In this document: in pieces, positions 10,499-43,737 of the stretch
Layout of the letters: each line of letters begins with the position of its first letter
Position numbering within the stretch: the first letter of the stretch is position 1
Source of the DNA: a bacterium
GTDB taxonomy: Bacteria; Planctomycetota; Planctomycetia; Gemmatales; Gemmataceae
Direction: 5' to 3'
DNA length: 45,855 nucleotides
NCBI GenBank assembly: GCA_017308215.1
Contig: JAFKFQ010000269.1
Coordinates: 1-45,855 of the forward strand
Notes under the pieces: model-generated
The model's database searches: none
The model's input: only the letters and a program-made list of their open reading frames with translations
What the model was told of the DNA's origin: nothing
Position numbers and translations under genes: made by a program

Positions 10499-10526
10499 TC
10501 GGACCACTCAATAAGGGGGCTAGGCC

Positions 10527-21865: not shown

Positions 21866-21869
21866 CGCC

Positions 21870-24224: not shown

Positions 24225-24249
24225 GAGGCAACCGCACCGGGGAAGGGCG

Positions 24250-24924: not shown

Positions 24925-24985
24925 TGTTACACGGCCCAAGTCCAGCAGCCATCGCCTGGCTCCCTCAGCACTCAGGAGCTACATC

Positions 24986-26542
24986 GTGGAGGATCGTCAC
25001 GCGGGCTTGGTCGCCGAGGTCATCAACGCCCTGAAGCCGATACTGACGCAGGCGAGGCGCCAGGGGCTTCTTCAGGCCGCCTTCTCCGGTGAGTCCGGCG
25101 AAAAAGTTCTGAACCAAATCGACTTTACGGGTGCTAACGATACCTTCGCCCCCGCCCTCGTCCGGCAGCTCATCCTGTTCGGCGAGGTCGAGCCCGGCCG
25201 GCCGGCGCTCGCCGTCCTCTTGGAGTCCCTCGCCGCGGGCTTCGGGGTCGACCAGAGGGACCGGTTCAATGACCTGTCCGAGCGGCTGAGTGATTACCTG
25301 CCGCGGGACCCCGAGAGGCTCCGCGAGCTCGTCGATGAACTCCCGATCAGAATGGTCGAGGAGCCCCCCTTTGAGGATGGTCGGTCAAGCGTGCGTGGTG
25401 ACCTCGCCACTCTCTTCCAGTTGATCATCGAGGAGAAGACGGCGGAGTTTGTGGGACGCGAGTACGTAATGCGGGAGGTCGAAGCCGCGTTGGCCGCCGA
25501 GGAGAAGGGCGTCATCACGCTCACCGGGGATCCCGGAGAGGGGAAGAGTGCGATCCTGGCGTGGTTCGTCAAGCGGACAGGGTGCGTTGCGTACTTCAAC
25601 TCTCGCTCGCACGGCGTCGTCCGGTCCGATCAGTTCATGATGTCCCTGTGTGGCCAACTGATCACCCGCTACAAGCTGCCGTACACCGCGATCCCGCCTG
25701 AGGCCAGACGTGGCGGGCAGTTCCTCGATCGCTTGTTGAGAGAGGCCAGCCGGAAGGTGGGTGACGGCGAGCGCCTCGTGGTCGCGATCGACGCCTTGGA
25801 CGAGGTCGATCTGTCCGGCCATCCGCAGGGGGCGAACATCCTCTTCCTGCCGTCCTCGCTGCCAGGGAAGACGTACCTCGTCGTGACCCGCAGACGGGTG
25901 GCCGTGCCCTGGGTGGTGAACGAGCCCGAGCACGTCATCGAACTGGGCAACTCCAAGTATCGGGCACAGACACTCGACGATGTCAGGCACTACATCCGCC
26001 ACGCAGCCGAGGGGCCGCGGCTGAAAGCGTGGATTGCGGCACGGGGAATCGACCCCCAGCACTTTGTCGATGTGCTAGCGGCCAAGAGCGAGAACAACTT
26101 TATGTACCTGAAGTACGTCCTGCCAGAGCTCGCGCGGGGCAAGTACGGGGATCTCAAGATCGACTCGCTTCCCAGCGGTCTCGAGAGTTATTATGAGTAC
26201 CATTGGAAACACATGGGCATGACGGCGAAGCCCGTCCCCCGCACCAAAATCAAAATCGTGTACGTGCTGAGCGAAGTCCACCAGCCGGTCTCGCGGGATC
26301 TGATCACCGGGTTCGTGTCCGAGGACGCGATCACAGTTCAAGAGGTGCTCGACGAGTGGGAGCAGTTCCTCCACCGAGAATGGGTCGACGGCCAGCCGCG
26401 GTACAGCGTCTACCACTCCAGCTTCCGAGATTTCCTGCACCGCAAGGACATCGTCCAGGCTGCGGGGGTGACGCTTGAGGAGATCAACGGGCTGATCGCG
26501 GATAACCTCTGGGAATCTTTTTTCGGGGCCCGACCTGGTTAG
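24986..26542 (+). CDS. EAD-STAND NTPase lacking a sensor domain
   Basis: A 518-aa predicted signalling ATPase. I chose GTG 24986 (CAGGAGC upstream) because the EAD starts there; the open frame extends further back into the HAD gene. Layout: EAD (1-100), shared extension LSDYLPRDPERLRELVDEL (101-119), NTPase with FVGREYVMREVE before Walker A GDPGEGKS (181-188) and Walker B LVVAIDALDEVD (264-275), then a winged-helix-like segment ending YSVYHSSFRDFLHRKDI. In relatives, this point is followed by a helical domain and WD40 or TPR sensors, but the gene stops after NLWESFFGARPG. The minus-strand gene at 34463 begins with just such a helical region. It is the last gene of the plus-strand run. Confidence 0.88.
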   Translation: MEDRHAGLVAEVINALKPILTQARRQGLLQAAFSGESGEKVLNQIDFTGANDTFAPALVRQLILFGEVEPGRPALAVLLESLAAGFGVDQRDRFNDLSERLSDYLPRDPERLRELVDELPIRMVEEPPFEDGRSSVRGDLATLFQLIIEEKTAEFVGREYVMREVEAALAAEEKGVITLTGDPGEGKSAILAWFVKRTGCVAYFNSRSHGVVRSDQFMMSLCGQLITRYKLPYTAIPPEARRGGQFLDRLLREASRKVGDGERLVVAIDALDEVDLSGHPQGANILFLPSSLPGKTYLVVTRRRVAVPWVVNEPEHVIELGNSKYRAQTLDDVRHYIRHAAEGPRLKAWIAARGIDPQHFVDVLAAKSENNFMYLKYVLPELARGKYGDLKIDSLPSGLESYYEYHWKHMGMTAKPVPRTKIKIVYVLSEVHQPVSRDLITGFVSEDAITVQEVLDEWEQFLHREWVDGQPRYSVYHSSFRDFLHRKDIVQAAGVTLEEINGLIADNLWESFFGARPG

Positions 26543-28448: not shown

Positions 28449-30039
28449 CTACCATGGCTTTTCAGGGTCGGACACCAACTTGTCGATTTGATCCGATGTC
28501 GTGTCGCAAGGGCGCGTCAGGTAGGCCACAGGGTAATCGCCCGTCAGCTCTCCATAATAGTTTTCTTCCATATTGAGGTGTTGCATCATCATCTGTTCCA
28601 CTTCCGGCGGTGCGTCGTCCGAAACGAACATGGAGACCGGTAAACCCTGCAACCCCCGCAACCCCACATGTCTGTAGGGACCGCAGTACTCAACGCCCTG
28701 TTGCTGGAGCGCACGGACCACGTTCTCCAAGTCATCTTCACCCGGCTCGCCCACGTCGGCTAGCTGTAAGAGGTCTGGAACAACGTCCGCATAGCGCGCT
28801 TCGTCCTCAATGTGAAGGCAGAGCCGGACTCGGTCGGCGTAGGGCACTCGCGGGTCGAAGACAACTGCCGAGCGCACCTCCGATAGCTCCTCTCTCCGCC
28901 ACTCATTCTGGAATGCCACAGCGGCTTTCAGTTTCATCTCAGGCTCGCAAGCTGGAATGAGTGCAGCGATCGTCTTGAGGAGAGATTCGGACGGTTCTAC
29001 CTTGTGTAAAGCCGCGGCCGCGGCGACACCTAGATCGGCCGGGGTTCCAGGGTCTGCGAGGACCGAACGCCAAACTTCTTGCGCCGGCCCACTCTGGCCT
29101 GCCCCGGCGAGGTACTTTGCCAGCGCGAGCCGGTCTCCGGCGGGGAGCTTTCGGGCGGCAAGCGCCTGTCTGGCAGCCGAGGCGACGGCTTCCTTGTCAC
29201 CCAGCATCGCAAGCAACTGGATCACACCAATCTCATACTCACCTGCCCCGTCCCTGAGCATCAGTTGGGCTACTTCCGCAACCCCCCCGATCCTCCTTAT
29301 CGCGCACAGGATACGGAGACTCTCCAGACGCCATGCCACGTCTTGGGACGGATCGGTCGCGATAGCTCGCAGTGTTGCTTCTGCTTCCTCGGTGCGGGCA
29401 AGTCGCAACAGGCACTCCGCGGCCTTGCACCTCCACCCCGCTTCGATGCCGCGGTCAGTCGCGAGGCCACTGGCGATGGCACCAGCGGCCTGCAACAGCC
29501 CCCATTCCCCAAGTCTGGTGGCCGCGATCAAACGCCATCGCGGGGGCACTTGCCCCCCCCTTGTAACTTCCTCGGCCAACTTCCCCGCGTCGGCCTCGCG
29601 GCCGACCCTTCCCAAGGCGAGCGCGGCGCGAACGCGGAGCCAGCCGGGCTCGGTCGTGGCTTCCGCCAGTCGCGCGAATTCGCGCTCGGCCGATGACGTA
29701 CTCCCGAACGCAGCGAGTACTTCCGCCGCACACAGGCGGGCTAACGAGGACCAAGCGGTTCCGGTCAGAACGCCTTTCAATTCAGCTGAATGCTGGCGTT
29801 CGCCCAAACCGGCACATGCCCCGTACCACACCTCGGCTTGCTCCTCTGTACCGTCCGCCGGACCGGCTAACAACTCGAGAACTGCGGCAGCGGCTCCAGC
29901 CTTCGCCATCGCCCGTGCGGCGGCACCACGTATTGCGCTGGCAATCGAGATGTCTTTGGCGATACTGGCTAAGTCGTCCGTGTAGCTGAGCTCGCCGAGT
30001 GCGGCGACTGCGCTCAGGCAGAGTCGGGTGTCCCCCCCC
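28449..30039 (-). CDS. HEAT-like repeat C-terminal part of the WD40 giant
   Basis: This frame encodes about 530 residues of HEAT/Armadillo-like helical repeats (RLCLSAVAALGELSYTDDLA, AIRGAAARAMAKAGAAAAVL, RVRAALALGRVGREADAGKL) and a short unique end (TSDQIDKLVSDPEKPW). It continues the repeats of the frame at 29782-34260 if one G is removed from a G8 run (minus-strand sense of 30032-30039): upstream repeats end LSALARGG and this frame resumes GGDTRLCLS. I therefore read the two as one gene. On its own this part has no convincing start and would depend on a frame change, internal initiation or slippage. A sequencing indel in the homopolymer is a plain alternative. Confidence 0.72.
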
Positions 30040-33000
30040 TCGGGCGAGAGCCGACAGAGTGTCATGAACCTCCTTGTCACCCGGATAGTCGCGAGCCAGA
30101 CACTCGATGGCGTTCCCGCGGATCTCCTCATCCGCCGCATGGTCGGTGGCCAGTGCCATGAGTCCGTCCCGGACGAGCGGTGAATCGCCTGCTCCCGCCA
30201 GCAGCGCGACCATCTCGACTCGGATCGGGGTGCGCACGGTCGGATCTGCCGCGATCAAGAGGATCGGCTGGACCTCTCCCCGACCCACGAGTTGAGCACC
30301 AACCCTGTGACGGATGCCACGCGCCACCCCGTCGTGTACAAGAAGACGTGGAACCGAGGCGGGTGCCTCGGCACGACCAAGGGACTCAAGCATCATGGCA
30401 GCGGCAAAGAGCCGTGGTGAGGGACGGAGTTTGGAATTCTCTGCAATGGCTCTAAGGTCGTCGAGGATCGGCGAGTTTGGGTCGTGACGGAGGAGGAACT
30501 GTGCGGCCGTAAGTCTCTGCCATTCCTCACACGTCTCGTCTCCAAGGATGTCGACCCACACGGCGCAGGCTAGATCCTGTCTGTTATCCGCGAGGAGGAG
30601 TCCCGCCACCCGACGCCTGATGCCAGGGTGTTCGCTGCGTTCCTGTGCGGCAGGAAGCAACCGGTCAATCAGCGAGTCCCCATGGGGTTGGATCTTGGCG
30701 AGCTCCCGCAAGGCATTCACACGCGGTTCAAGCGCGAGCGACTTGTCGAGCACGAGGTCCAGCAGTGCGTCCACCGCTTTAAGTCGGCCGAGCGCCTGGA
30801 TGCACTTCATCGCCTCTCGGGCGCTGGGTGAATCCCTCAGAACCAGATCTCGCAGCGTGGGAGTGGAATTTGATGAAAGCCCGCTCTGGTGGGCTGCCTC
30901 GGCGGCGTGCCTCCGCAAGGCCTCGTTCACTGTCGGATCGCGTGCGACGACAAGGAGGTCGTCTCCACCAAGCAGCCGAAACGCCTGGCAGGCGATTTTC
31001 ACCAGCCGGCCGGAGATCTCGTAGGTCTTGGCAGTCAGTTCCTTGAACCTACCGAGTGATCTCACCCGCTCGACTGCCGTCAGCGGCCCTCCGGTCTCGC
31101 GTTTACGACTCTTCGACTGGCGGCGAAGCCGTTTCCGGAAGGCAGCGACGAAGTCGATATGTGAGAAGGGCGCGAGGGCGTGTCCCCCATAAACTCTTGC
31201 GAATTTCCGGATCGCCTTCAACCGCAGCGTACTCGGAACGCTGTCCTCGCGGCAGAACAGGTCGGGCAGGTCGCTTTCCCCGCCGACCTTCACCAGGGCC
31301 TTGAGGATCTCCTCGCGCAGGCGCTCGATCTCGTCGCGGCGGCGGAACTGGTCTTCGATCTCCATTGGCATGAGTCTGTTGCGGCCTGGATGACGGCCAT
31401 GTTCCCACCCTTCCAGGCTGCGGTCCGGGGATACACAATGAAAGGCGAGGTATCGTAGGCACGGGGCCGCGTCACTGGCCGGGATCAACTCGGCGATCAA
31501 CTTGACTGCCTCGCGGCTGTGTCGATGACCGTCCGGCTCTTCATTCTCCCCCTGAACGACCCTCACCAGCAAGAAGAGAGCCGCGTCGGTCCGGCCGGCC
31601 TTGGCCAGCTGGCTGGCACAATGAATCCGAATCGAGTGGGTTGTCTCGGGCCGACATGACGCAGAAAACCCCACGGCCGACGCCTCGTCCTCAATCCCGG
31701 CAGCCCTGTACAATTCGGACAGGCGATAAGCCTGCCCGGCGTCGAGGTCCGACCTACTGAATCGGGCGAGGAGGGCAGACAACTCGGCCGAGTCTGTGAG
31801 CGAGGCCAGCGACTGGATCGCGGCGAGACGATGCCAGACGTCCAGCTCCGGTGCCGCGGCGAGGGTCCGCCAGGCGGTCAAGGCCTCGGCACGATCGCCC
31901 TGGCACCACAACTGATCCGCGGCGGCCCGGCGCATACCCGCGGGTACCGCGGATTCGCCCGCTATCCGGACCAGGCAACCGCGCGCGGTATCGCCCTTCC
32001 CGAGTCGGTACAGCGCGGACGCCGCGTGGAACCTCACGGTGGCTGGGACCTGGGCGTCCTCGCAGAGACTCATCCAGGCTCGCACCGCGCGTTCCGCACC
32101 ACCTGTTCGGCCGAGCTCATCCGCCGCCGCCAGTCTGGCCGCCGCGCCTTCGGACGGTTGGCAGGCGCGCCGCTCCAGCTCGTCGGGGGAAGCTGGGGCT
32201 GCGTTCGGGGTCTCAAGGCATAGTTGATGAAGACGGCCCAGTTCATCCCCCGCGTAAACCGTCGATCCTGGCAGGGAGAATACACAGGCCGAGACGCTCG
32301 CATCCGCGAAGAAGGTCGCCAGTAGCACGCCGCGGGGATAATCCCACACCCGGACAGTCTTGTCCGCCGACCCAGACACGAGGAGGTTCCCGCCCTCAGC
32401 CATGTTGATCGAAGTGACCCTCGTGGTGTGGCCAGCGAAGGCTCTCTCCGGAACTAGTTCGGGGAAGCGGTAAGCTTGAATGAGGCCGTCGGCGAAGCCG
32501 CAGAGGGCGAGCCTTCCGCATGGACTGAGGCAGACAACAGTGACAGCGGCGGCGTGAGCGTCGCGGCTGACTTCCTCGCCCGTAACTAGGTCGAGGACCC
32601 GAACACTGCCGGCAGACGAGCCGGTCAGGAGGTGCCGGCCGTCGGCGGAGACGGTCGAGGTGTCGAGTATCTCCGGGAACTTCCGCGGGGGTCGAAGTTC
32701 TGTCCCGGTCAATAAGTCCCATTGCCTGAGTGAACAGTGAATGCCGGGCACGCCGGGTGCAAACCGCTCGCGGGTGGGAACCGCCGCGGACAGAGCCCTG
32801 CAACCATCTGCCGTGATAACGCTTGTTGTTACTTCCGAATCCTCGGCAACATCGAATATCAGGTCGTTCCAATGGCCGCGGAATTCGCAAACAACTGCCG
32901 AGTTGTTTGTCCGCCAAGCCTGGAGTGTACAGGGGTCTGGGGTGTTGGACACCGCGATTTGGTCGGGGTAGGACAGGGCTCTGATGCGGCACTCGTCGGT

Positions 33001-34260
33001 GCGAACGACCTCGTTCTTCGCGGTGCGGGTTGGCGTGCGCGTCTCGCCCAAGCAACGGCCGTCGCTAACGTCCCAGGTCCGGAGCGTCTGATCGTCCTCC
33101 ACCGAGAACACCGTCCAACCATCGGGGCTTAGTCCGAGGCGGGCGATCCGGGAGGAGTGTCGACTCCCCGGCGTCTCAGAGCCCGACAAGTCAGGGTTCC
33201 ATAGGCACGCCGTCCCGTCGCTTGCACACGAGAGGACCCTGTTGGTAGCGTCCGCCGCGACGGCGTTCACCGCGGAGTCATGGCCGACCCAGCTCTGGAG
33301 GTTGCGGCCCGAAGCCAAGTCCCACAGCCGGAGGGTCATATCGTCCGAGCCGGACAAGGCCAGGGTATCCTGGGCAAGCAGGGCGACGCAGTTGACTGTC
33401 GCGGCATGACCGGTCAGGGCGCGCAGTTCCCGGCCGGTCGCAACGTCCCAGACTTTGAGGCCGTGGTCCACCGACGCCGAAACGGCGACGGCGGCGTCCC
33501 GGCTGACCGCGATGTCAGTGACGGCGTCAGTCGGCCCCAGTAGTCGGTTCGCCGGTCCAATGTGCCCGGTGTGCCCAACGAACTCCCGAACGGTTTGCCC
33601 TTCGTGGTCCAAGACCAAGATCTTCCCGTTCCGGCAACCGACGAGCACCTGTTCCATCCGGGGACAGACCGCCAGAGCCGAGAATGGGTGATGACGCTGC
33701 TGCCGACGTAGGAACGGGAGCAACTCCCGGCTTTGAAGGTCCCAGTTAACGATTCCGTCGGTGCCGCAGATGACCGCTCGACTCGAGTCGGGGTGGAAGC
33801 GGACCGCAACGACCTCGCCGACATCCGAGCGGACAGAGGCAAGCTCTCGTCGGTGCCCTAGATCCCAGAGGCGGACAGAATCGTCTTCGGCCGCGGTGAG
33901 AGCCAGCCGGCCGTCGCTGGCCACTGCCATCTTTCGGACTGGTTGGGGGCCGCGCAAGGTGTACAGCAGTTCGCCGTTCGATAGATTCCAGAGCCGGAGT
34001 GTGGCGTCAGAAGAAGCTGACAGCGCGCACTTACCCTCATTGAGGAGGGCGACTGCAGTCACTGTGGCGGAGTGGGCAAGGAGCGTCAGCGGTCCATCGG
34101 CCAGGCGCTGGAACTCGCGGTGTCTACGGCCGGTGAGCTGTGCAGTCGCCCCCAAAGCTGCGAACGAAGCTGTTTGCTGTCCTGATCCAAAATGTGGCGT
34201 GCGAGTCGAATGCTCTCGCCGAGGTGGCGCAGCCCTGATCGCCGCTCCGCCAAGCCGCAC
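29782..34260 (-). CDS. WD40-repeat plus HEAT-like giant protein (main frame)
   Basis: The central frame of a very large sensor-like protein. From about 34120 downwards it shows a string of WD40 repeats (TVTAVALLNEGKCALSASSD then ATLRLWNLSNGELLYTLRG; AVSASVDHGLKVWDVATGRE; LALSGSDDMTLRLWDLASGR; LLVSGSADKTVRVWDYPRG). From about 32200 it turns into HEAT-like repeats (AAADQLWCQGDRAEALTAWR; SGLSSNSTPTLRDLVLRDSP) that end in this frame near 30040; the last 80 codons after the G8 run are out of frame. The first 40 codons (to about 34140) also look out of frame. Two frame changes thus separate it from its N- and C-terminal parts, together 28449-34463, about 2,000 residues. WD40 and HEAT arrays are typical trigger-sensing regions of STAND systems. 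Confidence 0.8.
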   Translation of the reverse strand: MRLGGAAIRAAPPRREHSTRTPHFGSGQQTASFAALGATAQLTGRRHREFQRLADGPLTLLAHSATVTAVALLNEGKCALSASSDATLRLWNLSNGELLYTLRGPQPVRKMAVASDGRLALTAAEDDSVRLWDLGHRRELASVRSDVGEVVAVRFHPDSSRAVICGTDGIVNWDLQSRELLPFLRRQQRHHPFSALAVCPRMEQVLVGCRNGKILVLDHEGQTVREFVGHTGHIGPANRLLGPTDAVTDIAVSRDAAVAVSASVDHGLKVWDVATGRELRALTGHAATVNCVALLAQDTLALSGSDDMTLRLWDLASGRNLQSWVGHDSAVNAVAADATNRVLSCASDGTACLWNPDLSGSETPGSRHSSRIARLGLSPDGWTVFSVEDDQTLRTWDVSDGRCLGETRTPTRTAKNEVVRTDECRIRALSYPDQIAVSNTPDPCTLQAWRTNNSAVVCEFRGHWNDLIFDVAEDSEVTTSVITADGCRALSAAVPTRERFAPGVPGIHCSLRQWDLLTGTELRPPRKFPEILDTSTVSADGRHLLTGSSAGSVRVLDLVTGEEVSRDAHAAAVTVVCLSPCGRLALCGFADGLIQAYRFPELVPERAFAGHTTRVTSINMAEGGNLLVSGSADKTVRVWDYPRGVLLATFFADASVSACVFSLPGSTVYAGDELGRLHQLCLETPNAAPASPDELERRACQPSEGAAARLAAADELGRTGGAERAVRAWMSLCEDAQVPATVRFHAASALYRLGKGDTARGCLVRIAGESAVPAGMRRAAADQLWCQGDRAEALTAWRTLAAAPELDVWHRLAAIQSLASLTDSAELSALLARFSRSDLDAGQAYRLSELYRAAGIEDEASAVGFSASCRPETTHSIRIHCASQLAKAGRTDAALFLLVRVVQGENEEPDGHRHSREAVKLIAELIPASDAAPCLRYLAFHCVSPDRSLEGWEHGRHPGRNRLMPMEIEDQFRRRDEIERLREEILKALVKVGGESDLPDLFCREDSVPSTLRLKAIRKFARVYGGHALAPFSHIDFVAAFRKRLRRQSKSRKRETGGPLTAVERVRSLGRFKELTAKTYEISGRLVKIACQAFRLLGGDDLLVVARDPTVNEALRRHAAEAAHQSGLSSNSTPTLRDLVLRDSPSAREAMKCIQALGRLKAVDALLDLVLDKSLALEPRVNALRELAKIQPHGDSLIDRLLPAAQERSEHPGIRRRVAGLLLADNRQDLACAVWVDILGDETCEEWQRLTAAQFLLRHDPNSPILDDLRAIAENSKLRPSPRLFAAAMMLESLGRAEAPASVPRLLVHDGVARGIRHRVGAQLVGRGEVQPILLIAADPTVRTPIRVEMVALLAGAGDSPLVRDGLMALATDHAADEEIRGNAIECLARDYPGDKEVHDTLSALARGGGHPTLPERSRRTRRAQLHGRLSQYRQRHLDCQRNTWCRRTGDGEGWSRCRSSRVVSRSGGRYRGASRGVVRGMCRFGRTPAFS

Positions 34261-34463: not shown

Positions 34464-34546
34464 CGTGTGCGACTAGATCTCGCGAATGAGAGACTGTCCA
34501 CGCTGTCTGACTGACGCTGGGTTGCCGGGCTTGGTCCATCCCAGAG

Positions 34547-35584
34547 GTGGAGCCGATTGGAATCATCTACACCAAAAGCCGGTGGGCGAGGTCCGCCGAG
34601 TTGAAGGTTCACCCACACCCGGCCAACATAATGCCCTCGAGAGGTGCCCCGCAAGCGGTTTCTCTCAGAGCATACACCCGCGACGTACCGCGCCACGTGG
34701 TTCACCCCCGGCGCGTCGGGCTGGACGTCACCCAGCCGCCGGGCTTTTCTTGCCGGGGACAGGCCCACACAGCTGCTGGACCACTTCACCGTCGTGAACC
34801 GCCACACTCCTTGGCCGATCTCGCTGACCACACGGTCGCCGAGGCCGACCGGCGGTTGGCGCTGCGGGCGCTATTGGCCTGCCCCACCGGGTCCATCGGC
34901 TGCCTCGGTGACGACGACGTGAAGGCCGTGGGGGACGACTTCCCGCTCCCGGTCGAGGGGCCGGTGTACTACTGCGGGTACAACTCGCCGAAGTCCTATG
35001 GCGGGAACAGCTACCTCGTCCGCCACCCGGCGGGCAACTGGCTGATCGACGCCCCGAAGTTCGTCACCCCGCTCGTGCGGCGGCTGGAGGCGGTGGGCGG
35101 GGTCGCCCACATCTTCCTCACCCACCGGGACGACGTGGCCGACACCGAGCGGTACGCCCAGCACTTCCACGCCCGCCGCATCATCCACCGGGCCGAGTTG
35201 CCGGCGCAGCCCGGTGCGGAGGTCGTTCTCGACGGCGACGGGCCGTGGGAGTTGGCCCCCGGCTTCTGCGCCGTCCCGACGCCCGGCCACACGGAAGGCC
35301 ACTGCGTCCTGCTGGTGGAGGACCGCTTCCTGTTCACTGGCGACCACCTGGACTGGGACCGGAACGGGCGGCGGCTCGCTGCGTCGGAGGACTACTGCTG
35401 GTACTCGTGGCCGGAGCAGGCCGAGTCGATGGCGAGGCTGGCCGACTACCGCTTCGAGTGGGTGCTGCCCGGCCACGGCCAGCGTATACGGCTACCCGCC
35501 TCCGAGATGCGGGCCGAAGTCCGGCGATTGGCCGAGGCGATGCGCCGCGGGGGCGATGACAGACCGTCCTTGCCCGCCCCCTAA
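34547..35584 (+). CDS. MBL-fold metallo-hydrolase, uncertain N terminus
   Basis: A metallo-beta-lactamase-fold hydrolase. The well-supported part starts near 34820 (ADRRLALRALLACPTGSIGC) and runs to the stop. Metal-site motifs are THRDDVAD (a variant of HxHxDH in which the second His is Asp), PTPGHTEGHC, FTGDHLDWD and LPGHGQ. The variant first motif is seen in some MBL proteins of planctomycetes and cyanobacteria that carry an N-terminal ferredoxin-like part, and ACPTGSIG is the typical end of such a part. Here, however, the region 34547-34800 has no ferredoxin cysteines in any one frame and may be degraded or not coding. The frame is divergent from the WD40 gene. Substrate unknown. Confidence 0.75.
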   Translation: MEPIGIIYTKSRWARSAELKVHPHPANIMPSRGAPQAVSLRAYTRDVPRHVVHPRRVGLDVTQPPGFSCRGQAHTAAGPLHRREPPHSLADLADHTVAEADRRLALRALLACPTGSIGCLGDDDVKAVGDDFPLPVEGPVYYCGYNSPKSYGGNSYLVRHPAGNWLIDAPKFVTPLVRRLEAVGGVAHIFLTHRDDVADTERYAQHFHARRIIHRAELPAQPGAEVVLDGDGPWELAPGFCAVPTPGHTEGHCVLLVEDRFLFTGDHLDWDRNGRRLAASEDYCWYSWPEQAESMARLADYRFEWVLPGHGQRIRLPASEMRAEVRRLAEAMRRGGDDRPSLPAP

Positions 35585-35724
35585 ATGCCGCTCCCCGGGG
35601 GCGCTGCTCATGCCGGACGTACCAGCGGGGGCTGTAGGTCGGAGCCGGGACATGCCAATCATCTCCAACCCGGGTCGTCCTGTCTCGCACGTCCCGATGA
35701 CGGCCAAGTCGAAGTCCCGACCCG

Positions 35725-36172
35725 TCACTCGCGCGCTGACGCGACCAGCCGGGCGATCCGATCCACCAGTTCTTTTTGTGCCGGGGATTCCGGGCATAGT
35801 ACCCGGCAGCCGAGTCGTGGACCGAGAGGATCGCGTCCACGATCCCCTCGGCCACCCGCCGCACCCGATTCGGGACGGTCCGGGAGCCGTCCGGGTTTGC
35901 AGCCTTTGGAGCGCGGGGCAGCACCCTCTTGTCCGCCACCGGGCGAACCGCAGTCGTGGCGGTGCCCGGCGGGTCGATCCTCAGCCAACGGGCCTGTGCC
36001 AGGTACGGGCACCCCAAATCGAGCACGGTGTCCGACCCGAACACTTGCACCCACCTGGGCCACCTTCTGCTCGTCGCTGTAACCGCCGCCCCGAAGGTTG
36101 AGGAAGGTCTTCAACCAGTAATACCCGTCGGAGGGCTGGGCGGACCGGGCCTCGCCGCACCCTGGTGCTCAC
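35725..36172 (-). pseudogene. Decayed gene of unknown function
   Basis: Protein-like sequence is scattered over frames in consistent order on the minus strand. It may begin with GTG 36172, overlapping the stop of the small gene upstream. It then shows KTFLNLRGGGYSDEQKVAQV (to about 36055), WVQVFGSDTVLDLGCPYLAQ and ARWLRIDPPGT in the next frame, RTVPNRVRRVAEGIVDAILS and HDSAAGYYARNPRHKK, and returns to the first frame for ELVDRIARLVASARE and TGA at 35725-35727. At least two frame changes are needed, one at an A5 run near 35776. I do not recognise the family; the end is clearly helical. Confidence 0.55.
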
Positions 36173-36390
36173 GGCATTCCTCCGGTGCCGCCGACCCCGA
36201 CCGGCTCATTCTCGGGCACCCACTCCGGGTCGGTGCCGCCGTCCAGGCTGGCCAGGTAGACCTCGTGGCTGGCGGTCTGGACCATCGCCAGCCCGTCCAC
36301 CGCCCGCCGCCGGAGCACGCGGTAACGATCACTCTCCCACTCTACGATCTGGCCCCGACGGACCCGGCGGGCGCCGCTCGACTCCGACAT
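36169..36390 (-). CDS. Small conserved-looking protein
   Basis: A 73-aa protein (RRVRRGQIVEWESDRYRVLR, then AMVQTASHEVYLASLDGG) with a small beta-barrel-like pattern and no known family that I can name. ATG 36390 is preceded by GAGGAGGAAG, one of the best ribosome sites in the region. One copy of the 18-bp motif lies 57 bases upstream in the same orientation, so the gene leads a minus-strand unit that once included the decayed gene at 35725-36172. Its TGA overlaps the possible GTG of that gene. Confidence 0.65.
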   Translation of the reverse strand: MSESSGARRVRRGQIVEWESDRYRVLRRRAVDGLAMVQTASHEVYLASLDGGTDPEWVPENEPVGVGGTGGMP

Positions 36391-36447
36391 CGGTCTTCCT
36401 CCTCGGGAGTGAGACAGACCGCCCGGACATCCCGAGGCGGCCCCTTA

Positions 36448-36465
36448 CCCCTACGCACTTTGACG
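36448..36465 (-). promoter_or_regulatory. 18-bp motif, copy 1 (facing 36390)
   Basis: On the minus strand this reads GCGTCAAAGTGCGTAGGG and points towards the gene starting at 36390, ending 57 bases before its ATG. It is a perfect inverted copy of 36552-36569. Position and orientation suggest a shared promoter element or operator. Confidence 0.7.
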
Positions 36466-36551
36466 CGACCCGTGGCCACGGTCGCCGTCGCAAGGCACGC
36501 TCACGCCGGGTTTTGATGCAAACCGTCCGGCATCTGGCGAGTCGCGGCTTT

Positions 36552-36569
36552 GCGTCAAAGTGCGTAGGG
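36552..36569 (+). promoter_or_regulatory. 18-bp motif, copy 2 (facing 36607)
   Basis: GCGTCAAAGTGCGTAGGG on the plus strand, ending 37 bases before ATG 36607. With copy 1 it forms a divergent arrangement in the 216-bp gap between the genes at 36390 and 36607, which otherwise holds nothing I recognise. Confidence 0.7.
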
Positions 36570-36606
36570 CCGGGGCGTTCCGCGACCTGCGTCCGTCGGA
36601 GGGGTG

Positions 36607-37113
36607 ATGGACTTGGACACCTTGTTTGCGTGCGTCTCCGGCTACGAGCGGGTTGGGGACGAGTACCGGCTGTACGTCGATGGCCCGGTCCCGAGGTCGC
36701 AGCTACACCGCCGCGTCGGGGAACGGACGCCCCTGTTCCACCTGTTCGCCGGGGAGGACGCCGGGCGGGTCGAGGAGTGGCTGGCCCGCAACGGGGCGTG
36801 GCAATGCCTGCGAGTCCCTACCTACGACCGGGCGAAGGGGGTGCGGGCGGTGCTGACCGCGGAGCCGTGGCGGGGCGGCGACGGGTCGGCCCTGTCCGAC
36901 CTCGGGCGGGATCACGTCATCCGCGACGAGGACCACCGCGAGCGGCTTCGCCGCGAGGTCGAACTGCTCGTCGGCATGGTGCTGGAGAACCCCGTCCGGG
37001 TCGGGAAACTCGAAGAACTCCACGACATCCAGGACGTGGTGAACGCCGGCCCGGTCGGGGTCGAACTGGCGACCACCGCGGAGGTCATAGCGGCGTACTT
37101 CGGGGGCGGCTGA
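36607..37113 (+). CDS. Hypothetical protein, first gene of plasmid-like operon
   Basis: A 168-aa protein without recognised domains. ATG 36607 follows GGAGGGG. The N-terminal half reads FACVSGYERVGDEYRLYVDG and LFHLFAGEDAGRVEEWLARN; the C-terminal half is helical (RERLRREVELLVGMVLENPV, ELATTAEVIAAYFGGG). No membrane segment or signal peptide is visible. It leads the plus-strand unit controlled by copy 2 of the 18-bp motif and precedes an AAA ATPase gene by 65 bases. Proteins of this type are common in plasmid-derived islands and have no assigned function that I know. Confidence 0.65.
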   Translation: MDLDTLFACVSGYERVGDEYRLYVDGPVPRSQLHRRVGERTPLFHLFAGEDAGRVEEWLARNGAWQCLRVPTYDRAKGVRAVLTAEPWRGGDGSALSDLGRDHVIRDEDHRERLRREVELLVGMVLENPVRVGKLEELHDIQDVVNAGPVGVELATTAEVIAAYFGGG

Positions 37114-37178
37114 GTGTCGTGGGTGGGTTTCAAGTTTCACGAGACTCGGTACGTCCGACTGACACCGGGGAGGCGACC

Positions 37179-38186
37179 ATGCGGGGCGGGACGGCGACCA
37201 GGAAGTGGAGAACGAAGATGGCGGGGAAGCAGAACGGCGGTCGCAAGGCCCGTTCGGAGTCGCACGCGACCCCGGCACCGGCGAACCTCCCCCGAACCGC
37301 CCTGGAGGAACGGCAGGCGTTGCTGGCACACCACGTCAAGATGGTGGCCCGCGGCCTCACCAACGGCCTGTTCATCTCCGGGACAGGGGGCGTCGGGAAG
37401 TCGAAGGTGATCTCCGAGACGCTCGCGTCCGAGGGCGTCAACCCGGTGCTCATCAACAGCCACGTCACCCCGCTGTCACTGTACGCGGCCATGTTCGAGC
37501 ACCGCCAGGGAAAGGTGTTGTGGATCGACGACGCCGACAGCGTGTACTCGAACATGCCCATCCTCGGCCTCCTCCGGTCGGCGCTGTGGGGCACGTCCGA
37601 AGGGAGGGTGGTGACGTACTCCTCGACCCAACTGAACGGCCTGCCGGGCAGCTTCCAGTTCGAGTCGAGAATCGTGTTCACCGCGAACTCGATCCCGAAG
37701 AGGAACGAGGCGTTCAAGGCCGTCCTGTCGCGGGTGGACGTGTTCGAGTTGACCGCCACCAACGACGAGTTGCTGGACCAGATGGAGGTCATGGCCCGGA
37801 GCGGGTTCGGCTCGCTCGACGCGGCCACCTGCCGGGCGGTGGTGGACTACATCCGGCACGCGGGCGGGAACCGGCAACTGAGCATGAGGCTGTACGAGTC
37901 GTCGCTCCGCAAGGTCGAGTACGCGGTCGCCACCGGCACCGACTGGCGTGACCTCGTGCGATCACAACTCGACCAGTTGGGGAGCAAGGACCGGGACGGC
38001 ATACCGAAGCCGCTCGACAGCAAAGGGCACGACCTGCGGTGCATGGCCTTGGCCGTCGAAAAGTTCCCGGCGTCGGCCCGGCAGCAGGAGGAATTCTGGT
38101 GCGAGGCTACCGGCAAAAGTCGGGCGACGTTCTTCCGCACGAAACGGGAGTTCGAGGCCAGGCGGGACGGGGAGGGCCGCTCATGA
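37179..38186 (+). CDS. P-loop AAA-type ATPase
   Basis: A 335-aa ATPase. After a basic, disordered-looking start (1-35) it shows Walker A GTGGVGKS (68-75), Walker B VLWIDDAD (113-120), a sensor-1-like FTANSIP and a helical C-terminal part (LDAATCRAVVDYIRHAGGNR). The end (EEFWCEATGKSRATFFRTKR) looks like a small helix-turn-helix, so it may bind DNA. Similar single-domain ATPases occur in plasmids and phages. ATG 37179 has GGGGAGG upstream; ATG 37218 is an alternative. Its TGA overlaps the ATG of the next gene (ATGA), showing translational coupling. Its role could be replication or partition of a former plasmid, or DNA loading; this is inference. Confidence 0.82.
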   Translation: MRGGTATRKWRTKMAGKQNGGRKARSESHATPAPANLPRTALEERQALLAHHVKMVARGLTNGLFISGTGGVGKSKVISETLASEGVNPVLINSHVTPLSLYAAMFEHRQGKVLWIDDADSVYSNMPILGLLRSALWGTSEGRVVTYSSTQLNGLPGSFQFESRIVFTANSIPKRNEAFKAVLSRVDVFELTATNDELLDQMEVMARSGFGSLDAATCRAVVDYIRHAGGNRQLSMRLYESSLRKVEYAVATGTDWRDLVRSQLDQLGSKDRDGIPKPLDSKGHDLRCMALAVEKFPASARQQEEFWCEATGKSRATFFRTKREFEARRDGEGRS

Positions 38187-38545
38187 CCTCGCCGTTCCTG
38201 GCCCTGGATTGGGCCGTGTACTGGATCGTCCGGTCGGCCCTGCCGGTGGCCGTCCGCCCGTCCGGGTGCCTGGTGAGCGTCGAGGGGTACTACGGGGTCG
38301 CGGACGACGCCCGCTCGTGCCACCCGCTGGAGGCGGCACTGGTCGCGGAGCCGGTGGCCGCGGACTGGCGGGCCGCTGCCGCGACCGTGCTCGGCGTCGG
38401 CCCTGAGTGGGTCGTCGGGTTCGAGGACGGGTTCGCCCTCGCGGCCCCGGCCCGGAACGCCGACGAGTACGCCCGCGGGCACCTGACCGGCAGGGTGCTC
38501 CGGGCCGGGACCAGCGAGCGGCTGATCGAGCCGGACCACACCTGA
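38183..38545 (+). CDS. Small hypothetical protein coupled to the ATPase
   Basis: A 120-aa protein starting at the ATG that overlaps the ATPase stop. The sequence is acidic and hydrophobic in alternation (LDWAVYWIVRSALPVAVRPS, GVGPEWVVGFEDGFALAAPA) and ends with a charged segment (RNADEYARGHLTGRVLRAG). No domain recognised. The tight overlap suggests it is made in step with the ATPase and may be its partner. Confidence 0.65.
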   Translation: MTSPFLALDWAVYWIVRSALPVAVRPSGCLVSVEGYYGVADDARSCHPLEAALVAEPVAADWRAAAATVLGVGPEWVVGFEDGFALAAPARNADEYARGHLTGRVLRAGTSERLIEPDHT

Positions 38546-38562
38546 ACTTGGAGGGACGAACG

Positions 38563-38844
38563 ATGGTGACGCACGCGGCACTCCCGCTCGGTCGGCTGGT
38601 GGCGCCCCCCGGGGCGTTGGCGGCTCTGGACGCGACCGGGGAGTCGCCCGCCGGGTTCCTCGCCCGCCACCAAGGCGGGGACTACGGGGAGGTCAGCGAC
38701 GAGGACCGCAAACTCAACGAGGCCGCGGTGCGAGCCGGCGAGCGGGTGCTCTCGGCGTACCGGCTCCGCGACGGGACCGCGGTATGGGTGCTCACCGAGG
38801 CGGATCGAAGTTCGACCACGATCATGTTGTCCTCGGAATACTGA
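38563..38844 (+). CDS. Conserved plasmid-associated small protein
   Basis: A 93-aa protein with a pattern common on plasmids and integrative elements: LVAPPGALAALDATGESPAG, then FLARHQGGDYGEVSDEDRKL, then RVLSAYRLRDGTAVWVLTEA and DRSSTTIML. The family is widespread but its function is not known to me. ATG 38563 follows GGAGGGACG. It lies 17 bases after the previous gene in the same run. Its presence supports the view that this block derives from a plasmid or conjugative element. Confidence 0.75.
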   Translation: MVTHAALPLGRLVAPPGALAALDATGESPAGFLARHQGGDYGEVSDEDRKLNEAAVRAGERVLSAYRLRDGTAVWVLTEADRSSTTIMLSSEY

Positions 38845-38866
38845 CCACCCGCGAGGAGCACAACCG

Positions 38867-39442
38867 ATGACGAACTACGTCGGGGAGTGGTTTTCGGGTA
38901 TCCGCGGTGAGCGCGGCTGGTCCTTGGCCGAAGTCGCCCGGCGCCTGGGGTACACGAACATCTCGAAGTGTGCCAACAAGGTGCTGCGGCTGGAGCGGGA
39001 GGGCGTGGCCGACGACCACTTCGTCCGCCGGCTCGCGGCGGTGCTGGGCATCAGCGACGGGGTGGTCGCCTACCTCTGCCGGGCGGACCGGCTCGCCTAC
39101 GAGCGGGCGTGGCGTGAGTGGGCCGACCAGCCGGTGCCGGTCCGCGTCGTGGTGCGGGCGGTCCCCGGGTTCATGGTCGAGTTGGCCGTGACCGTGGACG
39201 TGACCAGGCCCGAGGAGGTCGTCGCGTTCGGTCGAGCGTATGCCGCCCGCCACCACAAGAAGGTGTTCGTGGTGTTGAGCCGGCGGCGAACGGTCGGCAT
39301 CACCGAGTCCGGGGAGATCGACGGCACGTTCGAGGCCACGCCCGAGTCGGACCCATGCCCGGGAATGAGCGTGGGCCGGGTCAAGTTCCTGTTCCGGCTT
39401 GGCGGGACACCATCGACCGAGACGAAGGGGGGAGCGTCGTGA
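38867..39442 (+). CDS. HTH-domain protein
   Basis: A 191-aa protein with an N-terminal XRE-like helix-turn-helix (about 5-70: EWFSGIRGERGWSLAEVARR then LGYTNISKCANKVLRLEREG, and RRLAAVLGISDGVVAYL). The remaining 120 residues are a mixed alpha/beta region (VPVRVVVRAVPGFMVELAV, HHKKVFVVLSRRRTVGITES) without known family. It is a likely DNA-binding regulator of the block and a candidate reader of the 18-bp motif, which is inference. GAGGAGC lies before ATG 38867. Its TGA overlaps the GTG of the next gene. Confidence 0.75.
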   Translation: MTNYVGEWFSGIRGERGWSLAEVARRLGYTNISKCANKVLRLEREGVADDHFVRRLAAVLGISDGVVAYLCRADRLAYERAWREWADQPVPVRVVVRAVPGFMVELAVTVDVTRPEEVVAFGRAYAARHHKKVFVVLSRRRTVGITESGEIDGTFEATPESDPCPGMSVGRVKFLFRLGGTPSTETKGGAS

Positions 39443-39774
39443 CCACCATGTACTTCGCGGTCTTCGCCACGAGGCGTGCCGACCTGGGCGAGTGGATCGT
39501 GTCGCTCGTCTCGACCGAGGCGTTGGCTCGTGTCGTCGGGTGGCGGACCCTGGAGGACATGCCGTGGGTGCTCCGCTGCCGGGTGAAGAAGGTGTACCTG
39601 ACACGCGCGCAGGTGTTCGCCGTCGTAACGGAGTGGGGGCGGACGGACGCGGCCCGGGGCAGGCCGATGGGCGCCGCCGAAGCCATCCCAGAGCCGTACC
39701 GGCAGGTTTACCTTGACGGCTACCGACGAGCGACGGGCGGGGGTGATTCCAGCCGGGGACAGGCCGGTGCGTGA
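39439..39774 (+). CDS. Small hypothetical protein coupled to the HTH gene
   Basis: A 111-aa protein starting with GTG inside the stop of the HTH gene (GTGA overlap). It begins YFAVFATRRADLGEWIVSLV and contains AEAIPEPYRQVYLDGYRRAT near the end. No domain recognised. GGGGGGAG provides the ribosome site. It closes the plus-strand unit that starts at 36607. Confidence 0.6.
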   Translation: MTTMYFAVFATRRADLGEWIVSLVSTEALARVVGWRTLEDMPWVLRCRVKKVYLTRAQVFAVVTEWGRTDAARGRPMGAAEAIPEPYRQVYLDGYRRATGGGDSSRGQAGA

Positions 39775-40094
39775 CGACTCGACGGAGGCCGTACTTTCCC
39801 TGGCGTTCAAACGTCAACCGGCGAGGGTGCCAGCCGCACCTTGAGCCTCTGCCCGATCAGGTCACAGACGGCGGTTCTCGCCGGATCGCATTTCGCTCAA
39901 CGTCAGCCCTCCCGACGCCATCCGCCGCGCGACTTTCACCGTCCCGCGATCATCGCGGCGCTCGTCGTCACCGGCACTTCGCCGTTATTACCCACAGAGC
40001 AACTTCGAGGCGGGCTGACGCTCGCACTCGCTCCCGTCGAACTTCAGCGCACCGCGCGTCCCCGCGAGCGTCGCGACCGACGCGGCAAAGGAAT
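39775..40094. other. Intergenic stretch before the DUF932 operon
   Basis: About 320 bases with no convincing gene; an open frame at 39771-40181 has an arginine and proline-rich shadow-like translation. The stretch leads into copy 3 of the 18-bp motif. Confidence 0.5.
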
Positions 40095-40112
40095 GCGACA
40101 AAGTGCGTAGGG
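40095..40112 (+). promoter_or_regulatory. 18-bp motif, copy 3 (facing 40157)
   Basis: GCGACAAAGTGCGTAGGG, 17 of 18 bases identical to copies 1 and 2, ending 44 bases before ATG 40157. All three copies point towards the first gene of a unit at a distance of 37-57 bases, which argues for a transcriptional role. Confidence 0.7.
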
Positions 40113-40156
40113 GGAGGACAGGAACAGGACACAAACGAGACGCGAAAGGGACGACC

Positions 40157-41104
40157 ATGCCGCACGAAGTCGAAACCATGACCTACTTCGGGGCCAAGCC
40201 GTGGCACGGGCTGGGGAGCGTGCTGGACGAGGCCGAGTGCTACGACTGGCCGGCGGCGGCGAAGAAGGCAGGGCTGGACTGGTCAGTCGAACTGGTGCCG
40301 CTCCAGACCGCCGACACACACGTCACGGTCGAGCACCGCGGGGTCCGCCGCTCAACGGACGGGAAGGTTCTCGGCGTGGTGGGGCCGCGGTTCGCCCCGC
40401 TCCAGAATACTGACGCCTTCGGCTGGTTCCAGCCCTTCCTCGACGCGAAGGAAGCTCGCCTGGAAACCGCCGGGGCGTTGCGGGGTGGCAGCCGCGTGTG
40501 GGTGCTTGCGAAAATCGCTCGTGCCCCCATCGAGATCGCCCGCGACGACCTCGTGGAGAAGTTCTTGTTGCTCTCCCACGGACACGACGGGAGTCTCGCG
40601 GTGCGGGTCGGCTTTACTCCTGTTCGCGTACTTTGCAGCAACACGATGGCCCAGGCCCACAACGCGGACGCCAGCAAGCTGGTCCGCCTACGGCACTCGA
40701 AGTCGCTGGTCACGAACCTGGCCCACGTCCGCGAGGTAATGAACCTCGCCAACCAAGAGTTCGAGGCCACCGCCGAGCAGTACCGGTCACTGGCCCGACG
40801 CGACATCAACCAAGCGGACCTGCGGAAGTACGTCCGCCACGTCCTGAAGGTGGACGACGCAGAGGTTCCGTCCGCCCGGCTGGCGAACCAAGTCGAGCAG
40901 ATCATCGGGTTGGCCGAGGCGGGCCGCGGGAACGACCTGCCGGCGGTTCGCGGGACGTGGTGGGCGGCGTACAACGGCGTCTCGGAATGGCTCGGGCACA
41001 ACCGCGGTCGCACCCCGGCCACCCGGCTCGACTCGCTCTGGTTCGGGGACGGGGCCGCGCTCAACAAGTCGGCACTCCAGATCGCCCTGGACATGGCCGC
41101 GTGA
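40157..41104 (+). CDS. DUF932 phage/plasmid-like protein
   Basis: A 315-aa protein of the DUF932 (phage/plasmid-like TIGR03299) type, found on many plasmids and phages; its role is unknown, with proposed links to DNA metabolism or defence evasion. The start YFGAKPWHGLGSVLDEAE is diagnostic, followed by VVGPRFAPLQNTDAFGWFQP, LLSHGHDGSLAVRVGFTPVR, VLCSNTMAQA, and near the end RGTWWAAYNGVSEWLGHNRG. All typical blocks are present and uninterrupted. ATG 40157 has AAAGGGACG upstream. It leads the unit controlled by copy 3 of the 18-bp motif. Confidence 0.88.
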   Translation: MPHEVETMTYFGAKPWHGLGSVLDEAECYDWPAAAKKAGLDWSVELVPLQTADTHVTVEHRGVRRSTDGKVLGVVGPRFAPLQNTDAFGWFQPFLDAKEARLETAGALRGGSRVWVLAKIARAPIEIARDDLVEKFLLLSHGHDGSLAVRVGFTPVRVLCSNTMAQAHNADASKLVRLRHSKSLVTNLAHVREVMNLANQEFEATAEQYRSLARRDINQADLRKYVRHVLKVDDAEVPSARLANQVEQIIGLAEAGRGNDLPAVRGTWWAAYNGVSEWLGHNRGRTPATRLDSLWFGDGAALNKSALQIALDMAA

Positions 41105-41181
41105 GCGTCTCTCGGACCGGCGGGTGCGTGGCCCGCCGGTCGGCTTCGTACTCACCTTCATCCGCTACCGAGGGAGCGGCC

Positions 41182-41391
41182 ATGACCGAGGACGCGGCGA
41201 GGGAGCACCTGCGGGCGGTGCTCGATGTGTTCACCGCCGGCACCGTGCTACACCTGCTGGCCGAGGTTGTCCGCGAGGACGGAGCCGAGGCCCGAAGGGC
41301 TGGTGACGAACGGACCGCGGACCGGTGCGAGGACGCCGCCGCGGCCCTGTTCGTGGTCGGCCTCGGGATCGACGCCGCACTCCCGCAATGA
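41182..41391 (+). CDS. Very small helical protein
   Basis: A 69-aa, mostly helical, acidic protein (MTEDAAREHLRAVLDVFTAG, TADRCEDAAAALFVVGLGID). ATG 41182 is preceded by GAGGGAGCGG. No family recognised. It lies between the DUF932 gene and an HTH gene and is likely in the same transcript. Confidence 0.6.
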   Translation: MTEDAAREHLRAVLDVFTAGTVLHLLAEVVREDGAEARRAGDERTADRCEDAAAALFVVGLGIDAALPQ

Positions 41392-41410
41392 TGCGAACCA
41401 GGAGTCGAAC

Positions 41411-41698
41411 ATGGCCAAGAAGCGTGCCGCGGCCCCGGAGGATAGTCCGGGGCCGATTGCGTTGAGCGTCACCCAGATGGCCGAGCGGTGTCAATTGTCC
41501 CGGTCCCGGTTCTCGTTCCTGGTACGGGCCGGGGTGTTCCCGGGACCGTCGAGGGAAGCGGGCCGGCGACCGTACTATCCGGCAGACCTGATCGAGCGCT
41601 GTCTGGAGGTCCGCCGCACCGGGGTCGGTGCGAATGGGAAGGTAGTGATGTTCAACCACTCCCGGAAGACGAGGCGAGTCAGGGAAGAGCGCGAATAA
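41411..41698 (+). CDS. HTH protein of excisionase/MerR-like type
   Basis: A 95-aa protein with one helix-turn-helix near residues 18-60: LSVTQMAERCQLSRSRFSFL, then RAGVFPGPSREAGRRPYYPA and DLIERCLEVRRTGVGANGK. The pattern of recognition helix followed by RRPYYP resembles excisionase or MerR-like DNA-binding proteins. The basic tail (HSRKTRRVREERE) also suits DNA binding. ATG 41411 lies 19 bases after the previous gene. It could direct excision of the element or regulate the block. Confidence 0.72.
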   Translation: MAKKRAAAPEDSPGPIALSVTQMAERCQLSRSRFSFLVRAGVFPGPSREAGRRPYYPADLIERCLEVRRTGVGANGKVVMFNHSRKTRRVREERE

Positions 41699-41845
41699 CT
41701 CTGCTCGTGAAGGGCGGCATACGACATTGCCCGACTGTCGGTTGTCGAGCAAGAAATGATCGCCTCACAAATTCAGCGTCCTCATGCGCCGAAACAGGAC
41801 TTCGCCGAGATTTTCCTTGGTTTCGGCAGCGATTTTTGCAACGAT

Positions 41846-42400
41846 TTACTTGGGATCGCCGGCTTCTACGGCCTCCCGGAGTTTACGGAACTCGTCGGCA
41901 AAGCGGTGGTGGTAAAAAGCGTTCAGCCCGCTCGGGTTCGGCAGCACCCACACCCGCGTCGTGCCGATGCGGTCGGGTTGCTCGCCCACAGGGGCCTTCG
42001 GTTTTCCGAACGCCACACGGTACGCGCCGACGCCGAGCACCGCGAGGAACGCCGGCGCCAGCGCCCGCACCCTCTCGGCGAGCCGCGCGCCACCGGAGCG
42101 AATCTCGTCGTCGGTGAGTTCGTCGGCCGCGGCGGTCGCGCGCTCGACCACGTTCGTGATGCCGCAGCCGAGCGGGAGGAGCTCCTGCTCCTCGGAGGGA
42201 TCGAACAGGCGCGGGGTGAAGCCGGCGGCGTGGAGGGTCGGCCAAAAGCGGTTGCCGGGGCGGCCGAAGTGGTGGCCGATGGCGGCCGTGTAAAGCCCCG
42301 GATTGATGCCGCAGAACAGCACCTTCAACCCGGGGGCGATGACATCGGGAACGGTCTTGCCGGCGGCGGCGAGCAGGTCGGCGCGGGTCGGTTTCGTCAC
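41846..42400 (-). CDS. mug: G:T/U mismatch-specific DNA glycosylase
   Basis: A 184-aa Mug/TDG-type DNA glycosylase, removing uracil or thymine mispaired with guanine. Motif 1, VLFCGINPGLYTAAIGHHFG (Asn33 equivalent to the catalytic Asn18 of E. coli Mug), is followed by RPGNRFWPTLHAAGFTP. Motif 2, VLPNPSGLNAFYHH, supplies the second loop. Length fits the family. The GTG start at 42398-42400 overlaps the TGA of the upstream cytochrome gene on the same strand, an unexpected coupling of a repair enzyme with an electron-transfer protein. Confidence 0.93.
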   Translation of the reverse strand: MTKPTRADLLAAAGKTVPDVIAPGLKVLFCGINPGLYTAAIGHHFGRPGNRFWPTLHAAGFTPRLFDPSEEQELLPLGCGITNVVERATAAADELTDDEIRSGGARLAERVRALAPAFLAVLGVGAYRVAFGKPKAPVGEQPDRIGTTRVWVLPNPSGLNAFYHHRFADEFRKLREAVEAGDPK

Positions 42401-43737
42401 TTCCGGGCCAGGCGGGTGATCGCCGGGTTACGCAGCGGCAGCGCGTCCGGCGGCGCCTTCAGTGTACCGAGGAAGGCCAGCACCGCCGCCTGGTCCGCGG
42501 TCGGAAGTGCCTGGTAGCGCTTCGTCACGGCCTTGCCGTTGCCGTTGTGGTGGAGGATCGCGTCCTTCAGCGTCGCGGCCGAGCCGTCGTGCCAGTACGG
42601 GGCCGAGTCGGCGACGCCCCACAGCGGCGGCGTCTTCCACTCGGCCGGCTCGGCCCCCGTGTCGGGGCGGGCGGGGACGTTCAACTGCGGCGGGGCCGGG
42701 CCGTAGCCGTCGCTGCCACCAGGCGGGGTCGGGTCGTCCATCACGTACAGGAGAAAGTCACTGTACACGCCCGTCACGCCGCCCAGGTCGGGAACGTGGC
42801 ACGCGGCGCAGCCGATCTCGCGGAACAGGTGCTTGCCGCGCGCCGCCGGCTCGCCGCCGTCGGCCTCAACCGGGCGTGGCAGCGTCTTCACGAACGACAC
42901 CAGCGCGCGGACCTGGCTCCGGTCCAGGTCGGGCTCGCTCGCCCGCTCGGGGCCGGTGAACGGCTGAGCCTGCTGCGCCGTCAGCGTGCCGAGACCCAAC
43001 TCGTTCGCGCACGCGGCGGAGACGAACTCGGCGAGCGAGTGGAACTGGCCGCGCCAGCCGAACTTGCCGACGCCGCCGGACACGTGCCGCACCTTGCCGA
43101 CCGGGATGTCGTCGAAGTGGAGGGCGAACTCGCGGGCGGCGGTACGGATGCCGCGGTTGCGGGCGTTGCGGAGGATGGCGCGGTCGGAAATCAGGTCGAT
43201 CCAGCCGGCGCCGAACAGCGCCGTCGCCTGCACCGGCTGCGTCCGCACCGGGTTGAAGTCGGGGATCGTAACGGTCGTCTGGCACCCCGGCGAGCCGGTC
43301 GTGAACGACCGCCCGGGCGTCATCGGGTACATCTTGTTGAGACGGGCGCTCGTCTCCTTCTCGGCCGGGCTCGTGCTGAAGTTGTGGACCGTGCCGGTGA
43401 GGAACGAGTGGTCGCCCGGCCGCGGCAGTACCTCGAAGCCGACGGCGTTGTGCTCGTTCGCCCCGCCGCCGCCGAGTCCTCCCTGGAAGTGGCACGCCGC
43501 ACACGACCGGGCGTTGAACACCGGGCCGAGCCCGTCGCCGTGCGCCTCGGGGTCGTTCGGGCTCCACTCGCGCTCGAACAGTTCCCGCCCGGCGGCGATC
43601 TCAGAGGCGCGGGCGCTCGGCCCCCAGATGATCGGGAGGCCGTCGGAGAAAAACATCCAGTACCCGGCGAGCCCGGCGACGAGGAGCATTCCGAGGCCGA
43701 ACACCTTGCGCTGACCGGACGGCGACAGGCGGCGCAT
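42397..43737 (-). CDS. Dihaem c-type oxidoreductase (DUF1111-like)
   Basis: A 446-aa protein of the DUF1111 or dihaem thiol-oxidoreductase/peroxidase type. An N-terminal membrane anchor or signal (VFGLGMLLVAGLAGYWMFF, about 12-30) sends it outside the cytoplasm. Two haem-binding CxxCH motifs are visible: CAACH at 79-83 and CAACH at 310-314. Typical family text follows the second, HVPDLGG, and near the end PPLWGVADSAPYWHDGSAAT with a further conserved histidine. It likely exchanges electrons with periplasmic partners; a partner imelysin or iron-uptake gene is not present here. ATG 43737 lies in a divergent gap of about 220 bases before the next plus-strand gene. Confidence 0.88.
   Translation of the reverse strand: MRRLSPSGQRKVFGLGMLLVAGLAGYWMFFSDGLPIIWGPSARASEIAAGRELFEREWSPNDPEAHGDGLGPVFNARSCAACHFQGGLGGGGANEHNAVGFEVLPRPGDHSFLTGTVHNFSTSPAEKETSARLNKMYPMTPGRSFTTGSPGCQTTVTIPDFNPVRTQPVQATALFGAGWIDLISDRAILRNARNRGIRTAAREFALHFDDIPVGKVRHVSGGVGKFGWRGQFHSLAEFVSAACANELGLGTLTAQQAQPFTGPERASEPDLDRSQVRALVSFVKTLPRPVEADGGEPAARGKHLFREIGCAACHVPDLGGVTGVYSDFLLYVMDDPTPPGGSDGYGPAPPQLNVPARPDTGAEPAEWKTPPLWGVADSAPYWHDGSAATLKDAILHHNGNGKAVTKRYQALPTADQAAVLAFLGTLKAPPDALPLRNPAITRLARK

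Follow-up and report, generated by a model that had tools for sequence, protein, structure and literature searches.

A short directional motif, probably a shared promoter or operator, precedes core genes in a family of Gemmataceae integrative elements

A conserved directional block of about 22 bp precedes first genes in integrative-element modules of Gemmataceae, and we consider it, with somewhat better than even confidence, to be the shared promoter or operator of the core genes of one family of such elements. The set comprises 21 bona fide sites (19 aligned, plus two further G045 sites found by weight matrix) in 7 of the 102 genomes searched in the order, and integrative-element modules hold all 21. 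The original prediction had proposed a promoter class or an operator in front of first genes, read by one of two HTH proteins encoded nearby; its first part is strongly supported by confinement to modules, direction, recurrence before orthologues and diverged flanks, but the nominated regulators are not. The site offers a sequence handle on how planctomycete integrative elements coordinate their own genes, and it is also a simple tag by which such elements, restriction and anti-restriction genes being carried by some of them, can be found. Nothing relevant emerged when the literature was searched for motifs or elements of this kind, for Gemmata promoters or for integrative elements of planctomycetes.

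Sites in the window and the module that bears them

The window (the whole 45,855-nucleotide stretch analysed) contains exact copies of the 18-mer GCGTCAAAGTGCGTAGGG at 36449-36466 (minus) and 36552-36569 (plus), and a copy with one base changed at 40095-40112 (plus). These three copies had been claimed beforehand, with the minus copy given one base low, and they stand far above the 0.04 matches expected by chance in shuffled windows at up to 3 mismatches. From the 18-mer to the start codon we measured 58 nt for the 73-aa gene (36390, minus), 37 nt for gene B (36607, plus; or 34 nt to a GTG at 36604) and 44 nt for the DUF932 gene (40157, plus), close to the gaps of 37-57 bases first reported. 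An 87 bp spacer separates the core of site 1 from that of site 2. The sites and the surrounding genes are as follows.

35775..36143, minus strand: protein C remnant, frameshifted; in G007, G023 and G045 protein C comes after A
36169..36390, minus strand: protein A, 73 aa, a predicted small beta barrel of no known family
36445..36469, minus strand: control site 1, core CGTCAAAGTGCGTAGGGG at 36448-36465, aimed at the 73-aa gene (protein A)
36549..36573, plus strand: control site 2, core CGTCAAAGTGCGTAGGGC at 36553-36570, aimed at gene B
36607..37113, plus strand: protein B, 168 aa, no assigned function, first gene of the plus unit
37179..38186, plus strand: AAA ATPase, 85% to G023, PHROG 1250
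38183..38545, plus strand: 120-aa protein, no assigned function
38563..38844, plus strand: 93-aa protein, conserved in G023, G045 and G048
38867..39442, plus strand: XRE-type HTH protein, 191 aa
39439..39774, plus strand: 111-aa protein, conserved in G007, G023, G036 and G048
40092..40116, plus strand: control site 3, core CGACAAAGTGCGTAGGGG at 40096-40113, aimed at the DUF932 gene
40157..41104, plus strand: DUF932 / TIGR03299 phage/plasmid-like protein, first gene behind site 3
41182..41391, plus strand: 69-aa protein, conserved in G007 and G045
41411..41698, plus strand: AlpA/excisionase-like HTH protein, shortened

The genome-wide search that the original prediction had called for yielded a single further exact 18-mer in the 9-Mb genome from which the window derives, at C24:3490-3507; allowing up to 3 mismatches added two 3-mismatch matches, which is the level of the reversed-pattern control. 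A chance repeat is thus ruled out by the shuffled-window expectation, the own-genome search and the reversed-pattern control, and a long duplicated segment is rejected because the flanks of the copies differ. The copy on C24 lies beside a large serine recombinase, with an N6/N4 methylase gene also adjoining; its start codon is 185 nt away, and it is accompanied by a degenerate inverted partner. On the same contig (L011:3898-6614, G000:C24) the serine recombinase adjoins a seemingly 5'-truncated M20 peptidase gene, which possibly holds the attachment site.

The module bearing the three window sites is compact (~6 kb, roughly 35.8-41.7 kb) and lies between a metallo-beta-lactamase-fold gene on one side and a uracil-DNA-glycosylase-family gene on the other, with no integrase beside it. 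Because protein C is frameshifted and no integrase adjoins, the module looks partly decayed and may be a remnant. A more complete setting is provided by G045, where the module lies inside a ~49-kb insertion that splits a comM/yifB-like gene (L041:4451-5767, L100:14670-14897; G045:C4). At the right end of this insertion lies a large serine recombinase, and within it are type I restriction-like genes and ArdC, along with a RuvB-like protein and an ECF sigma factor, the recombinase and ArdC having been assigned by Pfam and the split gene and restriction genes read from sequence. Among the motif modules examined, a tyrosine recombinase occurs in G045, plus a fragment in G048 only; inspected by eye, the G045 protein retains the typical R/K/HxxR/H/Y residues, and it is apparently catalytically intact.

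Anatomy, spread and coherent variation of the block

The 21 sites give the consensus AWYN-CGTCAAARTGCGTAGGGG, a block of ~22 bp conserved from about -4 to +17, with no conservation in the sequence on either side. The block has no dyad symmetry of the kind that marks a palindromic repressor operator; it is instead one contiguous directional unit with initial G residues, a layout like that of T7-type promoters. A same-strand start codon lies 28-94 nt downstream of 20 of the 21 sites, the exception being the copy on C24 described above. The gap to the start of gene A is kept at 58-64 nt in five of six genomes, that to gene B at 37-43 nt across orthologues, and those to DUF932 orthologues are 46 and 49 nt. 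A search for sigma-70-type promoters (-35/-10 hexamers 16-18 nt apart) found none in 34500-42500, and a sigma-70 identity for the motif was rejected: there is one contiguous conserved block, and no hexamer pair. An RNA family or conserved leader fold was likewise rejected: there was no Rfam match, and the leaders have no consistent structure (z from -1.7 to 1.4). The gene A leader in G023 (L038:14926-14992, plus) has a strong inverted repeat, CGAGACGACC / GGTCGTCTCG, which is absent as a conserved feature from the other leaders.

Divergent pairs of sites adjoin gene A in six genomes, lying between A and either B or ArdC in five of them and facing another gene in G004. The inner gap of these pairs falls at 87-88 bp in three genomes (88 bp in both G007 and G045) and at 23-28 bp in the other three. 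Since the 87-88 bp spacers keep their length while differing in sequence, a spacing constraint is suggested, with common descent a possible alternative.

A pattern search of the genomes of the order returned 16 matches, against 1 with the reversed control. Among the seven carrier genomes exact copies are confined to element modules, and with a shorter core and up to 2 mismatches the matches elsewhere are about as many as the reversed-pattern control gives. The same site stands ahead of orthologous genes in homologous modules of other Gemmataceae, recurring in six other genomes with diverged flanks; the G045 orthologue of the DUF932 gene is likewise preceded by a site, and in G036 and in G023, the Gemmataceae isolate CJuql4 with three sites, copies lie upstream of resolvase and serine recombinase genes. 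Exact matches outside Gemmataceae, single copies in unrelated contigs and one in a viral contig with phage-type sequence around it, were judged to be chance. Most of the genomes compared are incomplete MAGs, which limits claims of absence, the number of sites is small, and gene calls were made with a simple script trained within this analysis.

Two columns of the block vary between genomes, -1 being G, T or C and +7 being G or A, and agree within each genome, barring one of the three G036 copies at +7. Identity at these columns, which were picked after the alignment had been viewed, is 0.966 within genomes and 0.359 between them, a contrast that none of 20,000 label permutations equalled. Applied to the whole block (-4..+17), the same test gave 1 in 20,000; coherence was weaker in the upstream flank (30 in 20,000) and not seen in the downstream flank. 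In G045 six sites spread across 44 kb carry one variant at both columns. Such joint variation of all copies in a genome is what would be expected if one trans factor read every copy. By itself it could also track a host factor; since the site is confined to element modules, a factor encoded by the element is favoured and probable, and the genome-coherent variants amount to a natural code for finding it.

Candidate readers of the site

The HTH proteins at 38867 and 41411 had been nominated as the regulators, and neither family's distribution follows the motif. The 38867 family is present in 12 of 95 Gemmataceae genomes, 7 of them without the motif, and was not found in two motif genomes; the 41411 family occurs in 16 of 95, 12 of these lacking the motif, and was not found in three motif genomes, incomplete MAGs limiting such absences. 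On this distribution neither protein is supported as the reader.

Protein A follows the motif closely, being found in 6 of 95 Gemmataceae genomes, exactly the six with a divergent site pair (Fisher p = 8e-9 against the seven motif genomes). In G004 a site precedes its reading frame, which may be frameshifted at the end. Searches of viral contigs, of plasmids and phages, and of 391 further planctomycete genomes did not find the protein. Association makes protein A the best candidate for the linked trans factor, and alone or with protein C it may be involved in reading the site; because it adjoins the site pair, co-inheritance alone could explain the co-occurrence statistic. The second site on C24 and the G048 fragment have no protein A in cis. 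The predicted model of protein A is weak (pLDDT 65), a small beta barrel with slight KOW/Tudor-like resemblance for which fold searches gave no significant structural match, and we found for it no family and no recognised DNA-binding domain; the model of protein C is also weak.

Protein B is present in four further genomes (G021, G027, G090 and G091), there without protein A and without the motif. One B gene in G027 and two in G021 share another upstream block, GAGACNG..TCGTGCGTGT, in which a CGTGT-like part comes after GAGAC, at these positions:

L096:9546-9579, minus strand: alternative B-module block
L097:10408-10441, plus strand: alternative B-module block
L098:9661-9694, minus strand: alternative B-module block

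A block related to it precedes an integrase-like gene of G027 at L096:3397.

Promoter, operator and other readings

In the arrangement we favour, transcription of each core unit (A-C, B-AAA and DUF932; elsewhere also resolvase and serine recombinase genes) would start at the site or shortly downstream of it, and the site would be read by a trans factor carried by the element, the core genes thus being switched on or off together, apart from host control. Fixed direction and a single block favour a role in the promoter core over that of a mere repressor site, and so suggest that the site belongs to the promoter core and is not solely bound by a repressor. A serious rival to this is a classical repressor, encoded by the element, that binds the block where it overlies ordinary host promoters whose sequence is too degenerate to be recognised; this is possible, although we hold it well short of an even chance. 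The closest parallel is SPBRE, a 15-bp element repeated in promoter regions of the Bacillus prophage SPbeta and bound by the master repressor MrpR, which has a tyrosine-recombinase fold (PMC10516654). There too a short repeated element is restricted to the promoter regions of one integrating element, which uses a serine recombinase, and a conserved block marks jointly controlled units; in our modules the same confinement to mobile DNA was found, the regions being putative promoters by their position. The sequences are unrelated, the present host is a planctomycete, and a tyrosine recombinase was found here in just the two modules named above, the G045 one apparently catalytically intact. We take the parallel to concern how the site may work and not membership of that system. 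XRE proteins carried by some related elements (G023, G036 and G045) and the near-constant length of the longer spacers also fit a repressor. Like the palindromic operators bound by XRE proteins in phages and ICEs, the sites occur in several copies at what would be the element's own promoters, a divergent pair included; unlike them, the block is non-palindromic, with its direction fixed in 20 of 21 sites, and the XRE protein of the module does not track it, nor does the other HTH family tested. No conserved promoter hexamers stand beside the block.

A recombination site or RNA leader signal, in place of a transcription-start element, is a reading we regard as very unlikely: in G023 and G036 sites do stand ahead of resolvase and serine recombinase genes, and the fold of protein A weakly hints at KOW/Tudor domains, but many unrelated genes are preceded by sites as well, leader structure is inconsistent, and in G023 the motif pair leaves just 23 bp for any upstream promoter. 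Recognition by a host alternative sigma factor, for instance of the ECF type, to which the elements would have adapted, is unlikely. Gemmataceae are rich in ECF factors, one is encoded within the G045 element at 8257-11064, and modules that differ in gene content (C24, the right end of G045 and the A/B module) share one and the same site. Against this, exact copies occur in element modules only, with near matches elsewhere at control level, the block is single and contiguous and not a pair of boxes 16-17 nt apart, and the motif copies alone roughly account for the enrichment of TGCGTA upstream of genes. Phage polymerase promoters provide a further comparison of layout: those of T7 and T3 are contiguous directional blocks ending in GGG whose specificity bases differ between elements, and the present block, ~22 bp long, ending in GGG and with co-varying columns that differ between elements, resembles them. 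A T7-like single-subunit RNA polymerase is nonetheless extremely unlikely as its reader; the sequence is a different one, and PF00940 had no matches in the seven motif genomes, a result made uninformative by control genomes that gave none either. A dedicated promoter that works only when the beta-barrel protein A, perhaps with C, redirects host RNA polymerase is quite unlikely; if true, it would make protein A a promoter-specificity factor of a new kind, one with recognition bases that change together across every copy in an element.

Elsewhere in the window lie a tyrosine recombinase fragment (450-815, minus; Pfam Phage_integrase) and a second integrase-like fragment (7801-7950, minus), the latter judged from sequence alone. 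Three neighbouring large genes at 20477-26542 (plus) share a similar N-terminus, and the one tested has an EAD8 effector-associated domain as well as an AAA domain, which suggests a conflict-system array. A WD40-repeat-rich open frame of 1492 aa occupies 29782-34260 (minus).
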